A stretch of 45,317 bases of DNA, from assembly GCA_018645985.1 (NCBI GenBank), contig JABGVR010000133.1, forward strand, positions 1 to 45,317, read 5' to 3'. Positions within the stretch are counted from its first letter, which is position 1. The number at the start of each line of letters is the position of its first letter. A program made the translations under genes and the position numbers. This document shows, in pieces, positions 15,144 through 45,317 of the stretch. The notes below the pieces were generated by a model. That model searched no databases. It was given only the letters and a program-made list of their open reading frames with translations, and had not been told where the DNA came from. This DNA is from Hellea sp. Lineage in GTDB: Bacteria > Pseudomonadota > Alphaproteobacteria > Caulobacterales > Maricaulaceae.

Positions 15144-15158
15144 AGTCTATCATAGACT
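15144..15158. repeat. perfect 15-bp inverted repeat AGTCTAT-C-ATAGACT upstream of hsaA
   Basis: Read directly; 7-bp arms, 1-nt centre; overlaps the first base of the C-hexamer of site 1. Confidence 0.8.
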
Positions 15159-15226
15159 GCGCATTTTTCAATGGTAATAAATACGCAAAATGAAGTTTTT
15201 ATATAAAATTTTGCCTCATTTGCGTA
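15158..15226 (-). promoter_or_regulatory. tripartite TACGCA element, site 1 (mirrored, C-hexamer toward hsaA)
   Basis: TGCGCA 15158-15163, TACGCA 15182-15187, TGCGTA 15221-15226; start-to-start offsets 24 and 39. Confidence 0.85.
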
Positions 15227-15242
15227 AGAATATGTCCTGAAA

Positions 15243-16757
15243 TTACGTTTTTAACAAAAACTTCATCACTTTACCTGATGCATTTCTGGGCAAATGTTCA
15301 TGAAAACTTATACTTCTTGGTACTTTGTAATTAGCCATATTTTTACGGCACCATTGAATTAATATGTCCTCACTAATTGGCTTCTTTGTGACAACGTGTG
15401 CATGGGTAACCTCCCCAAGCCTATCATTATGCATGCCAACAACAGCAGCCTCAAAAATATCCTTGTGTTTTTGAAGCGCTTTCTCAACTTCAGCCGGATA
15501 AACATTGAAACCTCCTACAATCACCATATCTTTTTTACGGTCTGTGATTCGTAAATACCCATTTTTATCAAGAGTTCCTATATCACCAGTCTTCAACCAG
15601 CCATTATCATCTATTACCTCAGCAGTAGCTTGCGGCATATCAAGATATCCCTTCATAACATTAAAGCCCCTGACACAGATTTCACCAGAATCTCCGCGTT
15701 GAACTATATCGCCTCTATCATTTACCAATTTAACTTCAGTGCCAGGCAATGGCCTGCCGCATGTTGTTGCTATTGTTTCAAAATCGTCACCTTTTTTGCA
15801 TAATGATACAACTCCCGTAGACTCTGTTAAGCCATAAGCAGAAAAAACATCATTGATGCCTAATTTAAAATGCATGTCGCCTATAAGGTCGACGGGTATT
15901 GTCGTTGCTCCTGTTGTAGCAACTCTCAAGCTGGAAATGTCATATTTTGATAAACCAGGGTAATCGAGAAGACTTCGAAAAACAGTGGGAGCGCCTGGCA
16001 TCACAGTTATCTTTGATTTTTGAATAATTCTTAGGACATCCTCAACCTTAAATACAGCTAAAGGGAAAATTGCAGCGCCCCTTATCAAGCAAGATAACCA
16101 TCCAGCCTTGTAGCCAAAACTATGAAAAAAAGGATTTACTATTAGGTACTTATCGTTTTTATTTAGGCCAATAGCATCGGTAAAACTTTCAAAAACTTTT
16201 ATATTTTGTGCGTGAGTTGTCATTGCACCCTTAGGAGTGCCCGTAGTACCGGAAGTAAAAATAATATCCGATATATCTTCTTCATTGCCCTCTTCATTCT
16301 CAAGAGGCTTTACATCACTGTTCAAAAAATCATCAAACTTTTTATGACCGCTACCATCGCGAATTGTTATTATATGCTCCAGATTAGATAAATTATCTTT
16401 GTTAATTAGTTCAGAGTAATTGTGACCTAAAAAATCCCTTACAGTTAATAAAATTTTACAATTTGAACGTTTTAAAATTTCCTCAGCTTCAGTACCTTTA
16501 TATCGAGTATTGAGGGTTACCAAAACTGCACCTACAGCTTGGCCAGCAAGAGCACTAATAATCCATTCTGCACAATTTGGTGCCCATATCGCAAATTTAT
16601 CTCCCCGTGAAAGTCCCATTTCACTCAAAACAGCTGCTGCCTTTCTAACTTTTTCCGCTAGTTCAGCATAAGAAAGGCGCCACCCTAAATCTTCTATTGC
16701 TAATGCATTCGGCTGTTTGATAGCTTGTGCAAATAAAATTCCGGGTATAGTACTCAT
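15243..16757 (-). CDS. fadD3: acyl-CoA synthetase, FadD3-like (HIP-CoA ligase)
   Basis: IIFTSGTTGTPKGAMTTH, YGLTESTG, ITDRKKDMVIVGGFNVYPAEVE; LNTRYKGTEAEEIL resembles FadD3 as recalled. Start moved from 16778 to ATG at 16757 (MSTIPGILF). Confidence 0.82.
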   Translation of the reverse strand: MSTIPGILFAQAIKQPNALAIEDLGWRLSYAELAEKVRKAAAVLSEMGLSRGDKFAIWAPNCAEWIISALAGQAVGAVLVTLNTRYKGTEAEEILKRSNCKILLTVRDFLGHNYSELINKDNLSNLEHIITIRDGSGHKKFDDFLNSDVKPLENEEGNEEDISDIIFTSGTTGTPKGAMTTHAQNIKVFESFTDAIGLNKNDKYLIVNPFFHSFGYKAGWLSCLIRGAAIFPLAVFKVEDVLRIIQKSKITVMPGAPTVFRSLLDYPGLSKYDISSLRVATTGATTIPVDLIGDMHFKLGINDVFSAYGLTESTGVVSLCKKGDDFETIATTCGRPLPGTEVKLVNDRGDIVQRGDSGEICVRGFNVMKGYLDMPQATAEVIDDNGWLKTGDIGTLDKNGYLRITDRKKDMVIVGGFNVYPAEVEKALQKHKDIFEAAVVGMHNDRLGEVTHAHVVTKKPISEDILIQWCRKNMANYKVPRSISFHEHLPRNASGKVMKFLLKT

Positions 16758-16771
16758 ATTATACTCTTTTC

Positions 16772-16840
16772 TACGCAATTACAGAGTTTTACTATACAAA
16801 CCAATGATTTTGCGCAACATAAGACACAAAATATTACGCA
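16772..16840 (+). promoter_or_regulatory. tripartite TACGCA element, site 2 (fadD3-like / SDR divergent promoter)
   Basis: TACGCA 16772-16777, TGCGCA 16811-16816, TACGCA 16835-16840; offsets 39 and 24. Confidence 0.87.
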
Positions 16841-16848
16841 GGCATAAT

Positions 16849-17604
16849 ATGAGCTTCAAAAATAAAACTATTATTATTACAGGTGGTTCAAGAGGTATAG
16901 GTAGAGGAATTTCACAAAGTTTCTCCGAATTAGGCGCAAATATTATAATTTGCGGAAGAAAAGCCCCTAAAAAGTCAGCAAAAAATATCTTCTTTATCGA
17001 GCTAGATATCAGAAATAATGGAGCTGCAGAGAAACTCATAAATTTTGCACTCGATAAAACTGGAAAAATAGATTGTCTAATTAATAATGCTGGCGGAGGA
17101 CCTCCAGTTGAAAGTCACAAAGCTAGCCCAAATTTGACAGAAAAAATAGTCGCGTTAAACTTGCTAGCGCCTATAAATATTTCGCAGGCTGCATACGAAT
17201 CATTAAAAATAACTAATGGTTCAATTATCAATATCTCATCGGTTTCTGCTACTAGAAGCTCTCCGGGGTCTGTCGCGTACGGTGCATCCAAAGCAGGGCT
17301 CATAAATGTTACCACATCATTAGCAATGGAATGGGCTCCTTCGATAAGAGTAAATGCTATTATAGCAGGCTTGATAAAAACAGAGGCCAGTTCTGACCAT
17401 TATGGCGGTGAGAAAGGAATGCAATATCTTGCAGATAATCTACCTATGAAAAGAATGGGTACACCTTACGACATTGCTAAAGCTTGTATTTTTCTGGCAG
17501 ACTCAAATAATAGTTATATTTCCGGCGCATGCCTCGAAGTTTTTGGGGGAGGTGAACCACCTAGTTTTTTGAAAATAGCTAAAGAGGCTAACAAATTAAA
17601 ATGA
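16849..17604 (+). CDS. SDR family oxidoreductase
   Basis: ATG at 16849 (MSFKNKTIIITGGSRGIGRG); INNAGG, YGASKAGL; earlier in-frame start at 16717 would run through the regulatory element. Confidence 0.88.
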   Translation: MSFKNKTIIITGGSRGIGRGISQSFSELGANIIICGRKAPKKSAKNIFFIELDIRNNGAAEKLINFALDKTGKIDCLINNAGGGPPVESHKASPNLTEKIVALNLLAPINISQAAYESLKITNGSIINISSVSATRSSPGSVAYGASKAGLINVTTSLAMEWAPSIRVNAIIAGLIKTEASSDHYGGEKGMQYLADNLPMKRMGTPYDIAKACIFLADSNNSYISGACLEVFGGGEPPSFLKIAKEANKLK

Positions 17605-22038: not shown

Positions 22039-22673
22039 CTTACTCTTATCTTGGGATCGGGAGAATTACCCCGCATCGTTTTTAAAAACTCTCCGCGTGG
22101 AGCAGGTAAGGCAACCTCAGGTATGTCTTTGTCACTTGGAGGGTTTTTCCAAAATAAATTCCAAGACGGAAAGAGCTCATGATATGCTCCTTTATAATTT
22201 TCGCGATCAGGCCATCGCATTTTATTTTCACCAACTGGTGGAATATTCAAATCTGTAGCGTACCAATAACAGGGCAATCGACGTCTAAAATACCAAGTAT
22301 TGTCTATTCTTTGGTAATTGTCCCAATACATCATTTGCATTATTACCCAATCAATGCCGCCATCTTCCCTAGGGGTTTCATGTTCATTTTTTGAATACAC
22401 AACACCATGTGCTCTATCGGGGTCATCAAATTCTATAATGTGATTGCCAATATGATGGGATGTTCCGGTAAACTGAAAACGCAAAGTGTCATCAAGCCAT
22501 CGTTTTAATGCTTCCCGTCCAGAAGTATTTTTACTTACCCTTATGTCCTCAGCAAATAAATTCACATGCGCGTCCAAATCTCGCATATCCAAAGATAAGG
22601 AATATTTAGAAACTAGCTGTCTAATTGCCTCAAGAGACTCTAATCTATCTACTCTTGCTTCTAAATCGTTCAT
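22035..22673 (-). CDS. NTF2/SnoaL-like protein
   Basis: LEARVDRLESLEAIRQLVSKYSLSLDMRDLDAHVNLFAEDI...W.FRRR pattern. Confidence 0.77.
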   Translation of the reverse strand: MNDLEARVDRLESLEAIRQLVSKYSLSLDMRDLDAHVNLFAEDIRVSKNTSGREALKRWLDDTLRFQFTGTSHHIGNHIIEFDDPDRAHGVVYSKNEHETPREDGGIDWVIMQMMYWDNYQRIDNTWYFRRRLPCYWYATDLNIPPVGENKMRWPDRENYKGAYHELFPSWNLFWKNPPSDKDIPEVALPAPRGEFLKTMRGNSPDPKIRVR

Positions 22674-22708
22674 CGATACTCCAATGCTAATATTTCAACA
22701 TAATAAAC

Positions 22709-22777
22709 TACGCAATTTACTCTATTCTTTTGACTTATAACTTATTTTGCGTATTTTATCTGCATGTTTACTACGCA
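22709..22777 (+). promoter_or_regulatory. tripartite TACGCA element, site 3 (NTF2-OYE-methyltransferase operon / hsaB-like)
   Basis: TACGCA 22709-22714, TGCGTA 22748-22753, TACGCA 22772-22777; offsets 39 and 24. Confidence 0.9.
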
Positions 22778-22785
22778 AATGTATA

Positions 22786-23736
22786 ATGTCCAAGATTAAT
22801 CCAAATAATTTTCGTAATGCACTGGGTCAGTTTGCAACTGGTGTTACCATAGTTACTACGATTGATGACACTGGCCTTCCTGTTGGCGTGACTGCAAGCA
22901 GCTTTAATTCTGTTTCTCTAGATCCCCCTTTAGTTCTATGGTCCTTATCAAAGAATGCAAAGTCTATGCCTGCTTATCAGAATTCTGGAGGCTTTAATGT
23001 ACATGTACTTGCTAGTCATCAAATGGATTTATCCAATAAATTCGCACGTTCAACAGAGGAAAAATTTGAAAATGTGGAGTGGAGTCCTTGTGAGCAGGGG
23101 ATGCCTATTTTAACGGAATACGCTGCTCTATTTAGGTGTAAAACTAATTTTCAATATGAAGGTGGAGACCATATCATCTTTGTCGGAGAGGTAATAAGTT
23201 ACGAAACCAATAATTTACCAGTACTAGTTTTTCACGCTGGGAAATACGCAGATGCAAAACAAAAGTCTGTTAAAGTTGAACCAAGCTCAGCAGGTATTGA
23301 TCTCGGGTTAGGGCAGTTTTCAAACGATTTCTTATTATATCTATTATCTAGAGCACATTTTCAAACAAGTTATCCTGTTAGAAAAGAATGCTTAAGTATG
23401 GGGGTTAGTGAACCGGAATATTTTTGCTTATCATTACTTTCTATGAGCGGGCCAATATCTAGAAAAGATATAGTAAGCCGTTTAGAGCACACGGGTCATC
23501 ACCCTGACTCAGAAATATTTGCGAGGCTAGAACGAAAAAAATACATTGAGTCAAACAGTAATGATATATCTATTTCAAAACAGGGCCGAAAAGTTTTTAT
23601 TACTATTCTAGCTCAATCTAAAGCTCTTGAAGAGCAACTTATTAAACATTTTTCAAATGATGAGCTATTAGAAGCTAACAACTTTCTTAAAAAATTAATT
23701 AAAATTACTGGATCCGACATTCCAGAGCTATGGTAG
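22786..23736 (+). CDS. hsaB: flavin reductase (HsaB/HpaC-type) with C-terminal MarR-like winged-helix domain
   Basis: N-term NPNNFRNALGQFATGVTIVTTIDDTGLPVGVTASSFNSVSLDPPLVLWSL; C-term LLSRAHFQ...PISRKDIVSRLEHTG...LERKKYIESNSNDISISKQGRKVF. Start moved from TTG 22747 to ATG 22786. Confidence 0.82.
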   Translation: MSKINPNNFRNALGQFATGVTIVTTIDDTGLPVGVTASSFNSVSLDPPLVLWSLSKNAKSMPAYQNSGGFNVHVLASHQMDLSNKFARSTEEKFENVEWSPCEQGMPILTEYAALFRCKTNFQYEGGDHIIFVGEVISYETNNLPVLVFHAGKYADAKQKSVKVEPSSAGIDLGLGQFSNDFLLYLLSRAHFQTSYPVRKECLSMGVSEPEYFCLSLLSMSGPISRKDIVSRLEHTGHHPDSEIFARLERKKYIESNSNDISISKQGRKVFITILAQSKALEEQLIKHFSNDELLEANNFLKKLIKITGSDIPELW

Positions 23737-28771: not shown

Positions 28772-28840
28772 TGCGCAATAATTTTGTCATAATTTTACGT
28801 ATTCTGAGAAAAAATAGGTCATTTTCCTTGATTTTGCGTA
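28772..28840 (-). promoter_or_regulatory. tripartite TACGCA element, site 4 (mirrored; SDR operon / KstD-like)
   Basis: TGCGCA 28772-28777, TACGTA 28796-28801, TGCGTA 28835-28840; offsets 24 and 39. Confidence 0.85.
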
Positions 28841-32695: not shown

Positions 32696-32719
32696 TTCGT
32701 TTTAAAATCATCTTATTAC

Positions 32720-32787
32720 TACGAAATCTAAACAATTTTGAAAGATTTTATTTCATATTCGTAGAAAATTAAGCTAAACTATACGCA
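32720..32787 (+). promoter_or_regulatory. tripartite TACGCA element, site 5 (sulfotransferase / SDR)
   Basis: TACGAA 32720-32725, TTCGTA 32758-32763, TACGCA 32782-32787; offsets 38 and 24. The last base is the A of the SDR ATG. Confidence 0.72.
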
Positions 32788-36041: not shown

Positions 36042-36524
36042 CTAAATTTTTTCTAAATGTGGTGTAACAATCTTTGCCACTCTGTTGTCATATTTGACAA
36101 CATCTACAACTACAGAAGTCTCAACTAAACGAACTCCTTCAAAGTCTAATATTTTATTACTAGCCACCTGATGAACCTCAGAGAGACCCTCAAACAAACC
36201 TATTGCTAATATGTCAAAACGCCCTAATAAAATTATGACACCATTAATTTCCGGAAGATTAGCTATTCTTTCTGCTACCTTTTTAATTGAATTCTGCTCA
36301 GCATGTATACCTATATATGCTAGTTGTGGGGTATCAAGATTGGACATGTTGGTGACTGCCGTAAAACGAATGAAATTTTCGTCTTCCAACCTTTTCACGC
36401 GTGAGCGAATGGTACCTTCGGTAAAACCAAGTTGAGTTGCTATTTTCCGGTTTGATAGACGTGCGTCAGTGGATAATAACTGAATAATTTTCTGGTCTAG
36501 GTCATCAATTTTATAATTTGTCAT
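36042..36524 (-). CDS. Lrp/AsnC family transcriptional regulator
   Basis: IDDLDQKIIQLLSTDARLSNRKIATQLGFTEGTIRSRVKRLEDENFI. Confidence 0.93.
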   Translation of the reverse strand: MTNYKIDDLDQKIIQLLSTDARLSNRKIATQLGFTEGTIRSRVKRLEDENFIRFTAVTNMSNLDTPQLAYIGIHAEQNSIKKVAERIANLPEINGVIILLGRFDILAIGLFEGLSEVHQVASNKILDFEGVRLVETSVVVDVVKYDNRVAKIVTPHLEKI

Positions 36525-36533
36525 TTATACCTC

Positions 36534-36998
36534 TTAGATGGGTGCTACATCAAAATCATACTTAATTATATCAACAGCAAAGCTAGGATCTAGGCTTCTC
36601 ACACCCTTTATTTGAGATAGTTTATTTAGTAGAAAATCTGACATTTTATCCATATTAGATAATGTTACTAAGATTTCTATGTCATGTTTACCAGTTACAA
36701 GCTGCACTGAGGCAACCTCCGATAATAGAGCAATGTCTGCGGCCACATCATTTGCGCGCCTTCCTTTAACATCAACACCAATTGGCAATAAAACATTATA
36801 ATCAAATGCAGAAAAATCCGAAACTGCAACAACCTTCATCGCTTTGGATTGTTCCATGCGTCTTATTCGAGTTGTAACCATTGAAGTTGTAACGCCTAGT
36901 TGATCAGCAATTTTTTGATTGCTGGTTCGTCCATCTTTCTTAAGAATCTTTATTATAGCATTATCTAAGTCGCTAAATTGGAAATTATTATCAGACAT
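36534..36998 (-). CDS. Lrp/AsnC family transcriptional regulator
   Basis: FSDLDNAIIKILKKDGRTSNQKIADQLGVTTSMVTTRIRRMEQS. Confidence 0.93.
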   Translation of the reverse strand: MSDNNFQFSDLDNAIIKILKKDGRTSNQKIADQLGVTTSMVTTRIRRMEQSKAMKVVAVSDFSAFDYNVLLPIGVDVKGRRANDVAADIALLSEVASVQLVTGKHDIEILVTLSNMDKMSDFLLNKLSQIKGVRSLDPSFAVDIIKYDFDVAPI

Positions 36999-37083: not shown

Positions 37084-37152
37084 TGCGTATATATTTGTAT
37101 ATTTTACTCTGCAAACGTATAGATTTGAGTTATGTTTTTCTTCAAATGCGTA
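37084..37152 (-). promoter_or_regulatory. tripartite TACGCA element, site 6 (mirrored; Lrp pair / GMC oxidoreductase)
   Basis: TGCGTA 37084-37089, TCTGCA 37108-37113 (degenerate), TGCGTA 37147-37152; offsets 24 and 39. Confidence 0.72.
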
Positions 37153-43451: not shown

Positions 43452-45098
43452 TTACTTCTGCTCTTTTTTAAATAGCTTTGTATACGTTTCTCTAACTTTA
43501 TTTTTTTCAATTTTTCCCATAGCGTTTAATTCAAAAGGCTTATTTTGTATGATAATTCGCTCTGGTATTTTATACTTAGCTAAATTATTTATTGCAAAGC
43601 TTAAGATATCTTTCTCTGATAAACCATCTTTAGCATAAAGACTAACAATAAGAGCCTCACCCAACCGTGAGTGAGGAATGCCATATGCACAAACCGCTAA
43701 AACATCTTTATGGCGTGCCAGTATTTGTTCAATCTCAGCACAATAGATATTTTCACCGCCTGATATTACCATATCAGTTTTTCTATCAACAATATAAAGA
43801 TAAGCTTGATCATCTATTTTTCCTATATCACCCGTCTTAAACCAATCACGTGACATACAAGCTGCTGTCTCATCAGGTCTATTGAAATAGCCTTGCATTA
43901 GCGTTGCACCCTTGACCCAAATTTCGCCAATTTCGCCATTAGCTAAGCTAACACCTTCGTCATCCGTGATCTGCACATCAAACATGGGAAGTATTTGACC
44001 CGAAGCAGACGGATTAGCAAGGTAAGCTTCGCCAACAGCTTGCGATATTGCTCCGCATGTCTCAGTCATTCCATAACCTGCACCTATAAAAGCTTTTGGA
44101 AATGATTTTTGAATCTGCTCAAGGAGATTAATAGGTAAAGCTTGTCCTCCACAGGACACTGAAACTAATGAAGAAGTATCAAACTTCTCAAAATCTGGAG
44201 AACGAAGTAGATCCCAGTACATTGTTGGAACCCCCCCAAAATTTGATATCTTTTCCTCTTCAATCAACGCGAGGGCCTTTTCAGGTTTCCATCTGTCCAT
44301 TATCACTAATTTTCCACCATTGATTAGTGCAGTCATAAAGATTGCACTGCAACCGCTTGTATGAAATAAGGGAAATATTAAAAGCGACCCACTTTGGGGC
44401 ATCTGAGATTTTAATGTTTCGACATCAATACTATAATTTAGTGCCATTCTTTTAAGCACAGCAGCCATTGCCATCTGAGTATTCATTACACCTGATATAA
44501 AAGCGCCATGAGTAATCACAGCAGCTTTAGCGATACCAGTTGTACCAGAAGTAAAGAACATACATGCAACCTCATCGCTCTCTGTGCGAGTGGCTTTGAA
44601 TTGATTTGATTTCTTTGGAAAATTATCAGCTGATAAATATCTACCTTTATAACCTTCTTTGAGTAGGACATCTAGTCGGGCTTTATCACCAATCACACAA
44701 ACACAATTAGTATCTTCAATAGCTTGAAGCATGGACTCTCCAGTTCCTCGGCTATTTATCAAAACTGCCACTCCGCCAGCATTTATTATGGCGATAAAGG
44801 CAATCATCCATTCAGGCTGGTTCTTCATGCATATCGCTATAGTTTTACCCTTAATCTTTGAGATTTCTTCTGTAAGCCAAAAGCTGAGCCCATCTGCATA
44901 CCCAAATACGTCATCAAAGCTGAGACGAATATCTCCAGAAACTAAAAATTCAATAGCACCATATTTTCTTGCATTATCAAATATAACACTCATATTTTTT
45001 GGTGCATTCTTAAAAATTCGAATTGACCCTTGAGAAATAACCTCGAATTCTCCGCCAGGAGACATTAACTCTTCAACTATTGGATCGGCGTTTACCAT
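43452..45098 (-). CDS. acyl-CoA synthetase (AMP-forming)
   Basis: MFFTSGTTGIAKAAVITHG, GYGMTETCGAI, YIVDRKTDMVISGGENIYCAEIE. Confidence 0.9.
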   Translation of the reverse strand: MVNADPIVEELMSPGGEFEVISQGSIRIFKNAPKNMSVIFDNARKYGAIEFLVSGDIRLSFDDVFGYADGLSFWLTEEISKIKGKTIAICMKNQPEWMIAFIAIINAGGVAVLINSRGTGESMLQAIEDTNCVCVIGDKARLDVLLKEGYKGRYLSADNFPKKSNQFKATRTESDEVACMFFTSGTTGIAKAAVITHGAFISGVMNTQMAMAAVLKRMALNYSIDVETLKSQMPQSGSLLIFPLFHTSGCSAIFMTALINGGKLVIMDRWKPEKALALIEEEKISNFGGVPTMYWDLLRSPDFEKFDTSSLVSVSCGGQALPINLLEQIQKSFPKAFIGAGYGMTETCGAISQAVGEAYLANPSASGQILPMFDVQITDDEGVSLANGEIGEIWVKGATLMQGYFNRPDETAACMSRDWFKTGDIGKIDDQAYLYIVDRKTDMVISGGENIYCAEIEQILARHKDVLAVCAYGIPHSRLGEALIVSLYAKDGLSEKDILSFAINNLAKYKIPERIIIQNKPFELNAMGKIEKNKVRETYTKLFKKEQK

Positions 45099-45139
45099 TT
45101 GTAATTAAAAGCACCCTCGTTTTTTTTTATACCATATAT

Positions 45140-45208
45140 TACGCATTATCGATAATCAACATGGCTTTTCAACAGAAATGCGTATTTTTTATGTTTATTT
45201 TCTACGCA
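45140..45208 (+). promoter_or_regulatory. tripartite TACGCA element, site 7 (CoA ligase operon / SDR)
   Basis: TACGCA 45140-45145, TGCGTA 45179-45184, TACGCA 45203-45208; offsets 39 and 24. Confidence 0.9.
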
Positions 45209-45245
45209 TTCTAAATTATAAGCTCACATACAAAAGGGGACTCTT

Positions 45246-45317
45246 ATGAATGATTTAAAAGATAAAACCGCTATTGTTAGCGGAGGCAGTGATGGCATTG
45301 GGCTTGCAATTGCAAGA
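45246..45317 (+). CDS. SDR family oxidoreductase, N-terminus only (cut by window end)
   Basis: Absent from the ORF track; AAAAGGGGACTCTT upstream, then MNDLKDKTAIVSGGSDGIGLAIAR. Confidence 0.82.
   Translation, partial: MNDLKDKTAIVSGGSDGIGLAIAR

Follow-up and report, generated by a model that had tools for sequence, protein, structure and literature searches.

What is the function of a hexamer that occurs three times, at fixed distances, between two genes at the end of a Hellea contig? In the 45,317-bp stretch of DNA analyzed here (the window), half-site A (TACGCA, 45140–45145, forward strand), half-site B (TGCGTA, inverted, 45179–45184, reverse strand) and half-site C (TACGCA, 45203–45208, forward strand) match the gapped pattern TACGCA-N33-TGCGTA-N18-TACGCA perfectly. 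A and B are 39 bp apart, B and C 24 bp, and A and C 63 bp; A and C are in direct orientation and B is inverted. The element is placed between a CoA-ligase-like gene (43452–45098, reverse strand, start codon at 45098) and an SDR-like gene (45246–45317, forward strand, start codon at 45246, cut by the contig end), its putative left and right targets. The position of the CoA-ligase-like gene beside the element is conserved in another family.

The initial annotation gave these positions and spacings exactly, and the same geometry recurs in this genome and in its relatives. It also placed A and C on the same face of the DNA, in agreement with their distance of 63 bp, or 6.0 helical turns.

Recurrence of the gapped pattern at steroid genes

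Three perfect copies of the pattern are present in this genome: the focal element, a second copy in the window (22709–22777) and a third on contig C113 (4366–4434). With up to three mismatches allowed among the 18 hexamer positions there are 12 matches, nine of which have one to three mismatches, and a control pattern read backwards has none. We also allowed up to two mismatches in a scan of this genome and its relatives, 99 genomes in total. Eleven, including this one, have at least four matches each, two have a single match and the remainder have none, and the control pattern gave isolated single matches. Each of 10 further Hellea-group genomes has multiple copies, and two other alphaproteobacterial families have copies as well. 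When 85,462 named genomes were scanned for exact matches, 32 stretches were returned, mostly from Hellea, Hyphomonadaceae or Caulobacterales, including Hellea balneolensis DSM 19091. We attribute the off-lineage exact matches (Yoonia, Rhodococcus, Chitinophagaceae, Clostridia and Planctomycetota) to chance, since about eight are expected in 264 Gb.

The distances between hexamers are equally distinctive. In 775 kb of element-bearing regions from 12 genomes there are 48 exact hexamer pairs at 24 bp, 42 at 39 bp and 39 at 63 bp, raw counts that are inflated by orthologous, and hence non-independent, copies. About 0.05 pairs are expected per distance and orientation, and neighboring distances hold 0–4. 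Most element-bearing genomes have 6–12 paralogous copies of their own, with spacers that are unrelated between paralogues. Recurrence of the gapped pattern is far from chance.

Within a 9,10-seco steroid-degradation cluster, copies of the element occupy short intergenic regions, most of them between divergent genes. In the window, copies with one mismatch are found upstream of an HsaA-like gene (15158–15226, reverse strand) and between ligase and SDR genes (16772–16840, forward strand). The perfect copy at 22709–22777 is the core of a longer element (22685–22816, forward strand) that has further half-sites in the same register and is located between NTF2-like and HsaB-like genes. Copies with two mismatches separate an SDR gene from an FAD-dependent dehydrogenase gene (28772–28840, reverse strand) and the regulatory gene asnC2 from a GMC-type oxidoreductase gene (37084–37152, reverse strand). 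A degenerate element with four half-sites, TTCGTT-24-TACGAA-38-TTCGTA-24-TACGCA, ends at an SDR start codon (32696–32787, forward strand; upstream half-sites read from the sequence). The gaps between divergent start codons are 91–159 bp long, and the operator takes up much or all of them; it fills the 91-bp gap between the ligase and SDR genes (16757–16849) and the ~112-bp gap before the HsaB-like gene (22673–22786). In several copies, ~15 bp at most separates the element from the start codon on one side or on both.

Family searches of the window detected homologues of HsaA, HsaB, HsaC, HsaD and KshA. The HsaA and HsaD models are the best NCBIfam matches of their proteins, below the equivalog cut-offs. 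The HsaB model ranks third and the HsaC model second, behind related models, and both are likewise below their equivalog cut-offs. The KshA_C Pfam domain is above its cut-off. By family homology, then, the window is classed as a 9,10-seco steroid-degradation cluster. Outside the window, a copy on contig C183 precedes a gene for a TonB-dependent receptor, with more than 100 bp between the element and the start codon, and sulfatase-like genes follow (names read from the translations). Since copies are found at HsaA- and HsaB-like, TonB-receptor and KstD-like genes, the regulon predicted from gene families is steroid uptake and 9,10-seco-type degradation.

Three of these loci have additional features. 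The sulfatase-like genes of contig C183 (locus L040, 1200–6883) are an arylsulfatase-like gene and an alkylsulfatase-like gene with a metallo-beta-lactamase fold; perhaps this locus serves the uptake and desulfation of sulfated steroids. On contig C113 (locus L041, 993–4292) the element is upstream of a KstD-like FAD dehydrogenase gene, named from its translation, with a second arylsulfatase-like gene downstream; the divergent neighbor on the other side is radA. The HsaB-like flavin reductase of the window (22747–23736) has a C-terminal extension, and over its whole length it resembles p-hydroxyphenylacetate hydroxylase reductase (NF045919). The C-terminal part of that reductase is MarR-like.

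Anatomy of the putative operator and its candidate regulators

The number of clear half-sites per run in 71 non-redundant elements is two (23 elements), three (44) or four (4). Among the 54 non-redundant elements with three half-sites, A/T content oscillates with a period of 10.25–10.5 bp from about −26 to +80 relative to A, i.e., over ~106 bp. The power of the A/T signal at 10.5 bp is 0.73; none of 2000 random circular shifts exceeds 0.07. The A/T profile is most nearly mirror-symmetric about two centers, the 39-bp dyad (22.0, r = 0.86) and the 24-bp dyad (53.5, r = 0.75), and the hexamers themselves contribute to these correlations. These two dyads are 31.5 bp apart, which corresponds to three helical turns. 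Because the A/T patches are phased with the CG cores of the hexamers between them, we infer that the patches sit at inward-facing minor grooves, and that the hexamers present their major grooves on the same inner side. This phased A/T signal over ~106 bp is probably the sequence signature of DNA wrapped around an oligomer, most plausibly of four Lrp-type dimers. In the focal copy, the presumed wrapped segment would extend from 45114 to 45220, as projected from the 54-copy average.

Is the element complete with three half-sites? A CG core is enriched 23–24 bp outside A, at −22 or −21, in 25 of the 54 copies; 11 copies have it at one position, and the count of 25 includes the neighboring base. 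The slot beyond C is much less enriched (7 of 54), and the control mean for both slots is 2.7 per position. This asymmetry suggests that the full operator probably has four half-sites spaced 24-39-24, with the weak outer one on the A side. In the focal element, this symmetry predicts the position of a possible degenerate half-site, CTCGTT (45116–45121, reverse strand), 24 bp outside A. An indefinite repeat array is rejected, because clear half-sites end after two to four and the slot beyond C is little enriched.

Each half-site may be part of a larger box. A weak second half at +9 would give a 15-bp Lrp-like box, TACGCAWWWTGCGTA, with centers 30 and 33 bp apart, and its enrichment is slight. 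Each box would then have a strong TACGCA half, an A/T center and a weakly enriched opposite half. With an enrichment this weak, we do not build on a perfect 15-bp palindromic box for each hexamer.

Of the structures proposed in the initial annotation, oligomer wrapping in a higher-order complex agrees best with the data: paralogues, species and families all keep the same spacing, and the A/T patches are phased over the whole element. The variant in which two dimers share a half-site did not hold up. One composite operator, in which the fourth half-site is weak, has symmetry axes at both the 39-bp and the 24-bp dyad, and so needs no sharing. Lrp-family dimers bind to one face of the DNA at intervals of two or three turns, and higher oligomers wrap DNA (PMC2995911, PMC3584215, PMC7830388). 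The helical phase of Lrp/AsnC operators is found here in dyads that recur every 31.5 bp and in the 63 bp between A and C, base-exact in most copies.

Two adjacent genes in the window encode Lrp/AsnC-family regulators, AsnC1 (36042–36524, reverse strand) and AsnC2 (36534–36998, reverse strand). They are ~34% identical to each other and are the sole dedicated regulators in the window. The AsnC-type HTH (PF13404) and RAM (PF01037, AsnC_trans_reg) domains are above cut-offs in both proteins, and solved members of the Lrp/AsnC family match them by sequence, with E-values down to 7e-19. The recognition helix of AsnC1, TEGTIR-x-R-[VL]-KRL, is nearly invariant over three families while that of AsnC2 drifts, which suggests that AsnC1 reads TACGCA; AsnC2 is its candidate partner.

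Orthologues of the pair were found in genomes G000–G003, G005, G006, G009, G010, G024, G035, G039 and G056, and every genome found with the pair carries the element or its 24-bp half. G024 is the one relative with the pair and no match to the 69-bp pattern; its cluster contains four copies of the 24-bp dyad, two of them 62 bp apart and thus spaced 24-38-24. In three element-free genomes of the same genus (G004, G007 and G008) the pair was not found, and there were distant AsnC relatives at most. Relatives of AsnC1 and AsnC2 were also absent from the stretches (up to 8 kb) fetched around the off-lineage exact matches. In the second family, the pair is present in one genus only, with 69–71% identity for AsnC2, and all element matches with at most one mismatch fall in that genus. 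The synteny is as here: AsnC1, AsnC2, KshA-like, amidohydrolase, ligase, element and SDR, an order read in G488. In one 56%-complete assembly of this genus (G485) the element is present and the pair was not detected. In the third family, where the pair is 51–55% identical, a TTCGTA-18-TACGCA dyad is conserved between two species and separates an HsaA-like gene from an acyl-CoA dehydrogenase/thiolase operon. The proposed link between the AsnC pair and the element is drawn from their co-occurrence in three families and from the operator anatomy.

Two side observations concern these families. In the second-family genus (locus L159, 7255–7323, with orthologues in G248, G484, G485 and G486) the spacers, as well as the hexamers, are nearly identical between species, perhaps due to core promoters inside the element. 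In the third-family genomes G343 and G422 (loci L136 and L133), the pair adjoins cysQ-like and sulfate-assimilation-like genes; in G343, the pair and the steroid-gene element are on different contigs.

Proposed mode of action and its alternatives

In our view, the element is likely to serve a dedicated steroid-catabolism regulon of Hellea-type Alphaproteobacteria as its operator, and to be read by AsnC1 and AsnC2 in a wrapped, promoter-occluding complex that steroid relieves. Each TACGCA would be the strong half of one Lrp-type dimer contact. There would be four contacts, spaced 24-39-24 bp and with one usually degenerate, and with axes every 31.5 bp all recognition major grooves would point to the same face. 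Some 105–110 bp of DNA with phased A/T patches could then be wrapped around four dimers in an octamer-like particle. This complex would most likely occlude promoters, and a steroid or steroid-CoA ligand would loosen it to turn the regulon on. Where divergent start codons leave no space beyond the operator, the promoters have to be within it, and occlusion with relief by steroid or steroid-CoA would be the simplest mechanism.

In this proposal we infer that the AsnC pair binds the element, that the DNA is wrapped, that the proteins form heteromers and an octamer, and that they act as a repressor under control of the ligand. In support are the fixed geometry, the near-zero controls, the copies at steroid-gene and TonB-receptor promoters, the co-occurrence with the AsnC pair, the A/T phasing and the two-dyad symmetry. 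Several points weigh against it. The AsnC pair is inside the element-bearing cluster, so co-occurrence could mean that the whole cluster was inherited together. Strong conservation is limited to one half of each supposed dimer site, the second half being weak. Sharp hexamers such as these are unusual for Lrp-type sites, most of which have been described as degenerate. The TonB-receptor copy, with its greater distance from the start codon, suits occlusion less well, and the incomplete G485 assembly has the element without a detected AsnC pair.

We tentatively suggest, as a possibility with somewhat less than even chances, that the complex is a hetero-oligomer. AsnC1 would read TACGCA, AsnC2 would serve as a near-nonspecific second contact and/or as the steroid sensor, and four alternating heterodimers would wrap ~108 bp.

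Could the same AsnC complex on the same operator be mainly an activator or a dual regulator, with wrapping that positions RNA polymerase? Wrapped Lrp-family complexes can activate, repress or do both (PMC2995911), and the distance of more than 100 bp upstream of the TonB-receptor gene would suit this role. In several copies, however, the proximity of the element to one or both start codons leaves no room for an outside promoter, and we regard a mainly activating or dual role as somewhat unlikely.

It is less probable still that the operator belongs to a different oligomerizing regulator (TetR, MarR or another HTH protein, encoded elsewhere), with the AsnC pair a mere neighbor. Steroid genes elsewhere are controlled by the TetR regulators KstR and KstR2, the LuxR-like TeiR and the LysR-type HsdR (PMC8399759), and by AraC and TetR regulators in Caenibius (PMC12882949). 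This reading is also favored by the extra region that the HsaB-like reductase has beyond its flavin-reductase domain, and by a TetR-like ORF near the AsnC pair in G343. Nonetheless, the window contains no dedicated regulator other than the AsnC pair, this pair follows the element through three families, and dyads three turns apart with A/T phasing over ~106 bp suit Lrp/AsnC wrapping, unlike a single TetR or MarR dimer.

The initial annotation also allowed that TGCGTA-N18-TACGCA might be a −35/−10 pair. The 18-bp spacing is indeed near that of promoter hexamers, but the pair is a perfect inverted repeat with a third half-site at a fixed distance, it occurs in either orientation relative to the genes, and its hexamers are unlike those of sigma-70. 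A search for sigma-70 promoters (TTGACA-like and TATAAT-like hexamers 16–18 bp apart) did not call B and C as promoter hexamers in any of three elements; the promoter-like matches nearby are other sequences, at shuffle level and with no excess over shuffles. Hence, we reject this reading as very improbable. A mobile, recombination or RNA element (hairpin, attachment site or repeat family) is the least credible explanation, since, despite inverted repeats recurring at fixed distances in intergenic DNA, paralogue spacers are unrelated apart from A/T phasing, unlike those of a mobile repeat, the copies are at orthologous and functionally coherent promoters, and an Rfam search of the window matched no family.

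Relation to known systems and significance

The closest parallel to the proposed AsnC1/AsnC2 operator is that of Ss-LrpB from Sulfolobus solfataricus, which recognizes a 15-bp box, TTGCAAAATTTGCAA, with an A/T center and wraps ~100 bp around three dimers (PMC4046817, PMC2995911). Both operators have multiple regularly spaced sites; cooperative dimer binding and ~100 bp of wrapped DNA are described for Ss-LrpB, and the A/T phasing suggests wrapping here. They differ in that Ss-LrpB has full-palindrome boxes and three dimers, whereas here each supposed box has one strong half-site, the spacing alternates between 24 and 39 bp, the geometry is exact regulon-wide and the pathway is that of steroids. 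The octamers of FL11, LrpA and CopR are tetramers of dimers with outward DNA-binding domains and with wrapped DNA or footprints at helical-turn intervals (PMC7830388). In these homo-oligomers the effectors are amino acids or metals; the system proposed here has two paralogues in tandem, which would probably respond to a steroid-type effector. In the bile-salt cluster of Sphingobium sp. Chol11, two contiguous Lrp/AsnC genes lie, by annotation, inside a steroid catabolic cluster, with no described operator or function (PMC12882949).

A literature search on Lrp/AsnC regulators and steroid degradation found nothing on operators. In actinobacterial sterol catabolism, the operators of KstR and KstR2 are short single palindromes read by TetR dimers. 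Like the system proposed here, KstR and KstR2 provide dedicated control of steroid degradation, as repressors; bile-acid-degrading Proteobacteria are stated to lack homologues of them, and regulation in these bacteria is largely unknown according to the same review (PMC8399759). Lrp/AsnC wrapping is itself known. What would be new here is that such control serves a steroid regulon, with a pair of tandem regulators and with half-sites whose geometry is unusually rigid.

With more than 50 copies, a fixed geometry and phased A/T patches, the elements are an unusually clean natural data set for tests of Lrp/AsnC oligomer wrapping. If the hetero-oligomer proposal is true, the operator encodes a protein–DNA particle with single-base precision, throughout a whole regulon and in three bacterial families, and this particle senses a steroid rather than an amino acid. 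For the named strain Hellea balneolensis DSM 19091, our analysis supplies a concrete operator, a candidate regulator pair and a list of targets (ring-cleavage enzymes, a side-chain ligase and a TonB receptor).
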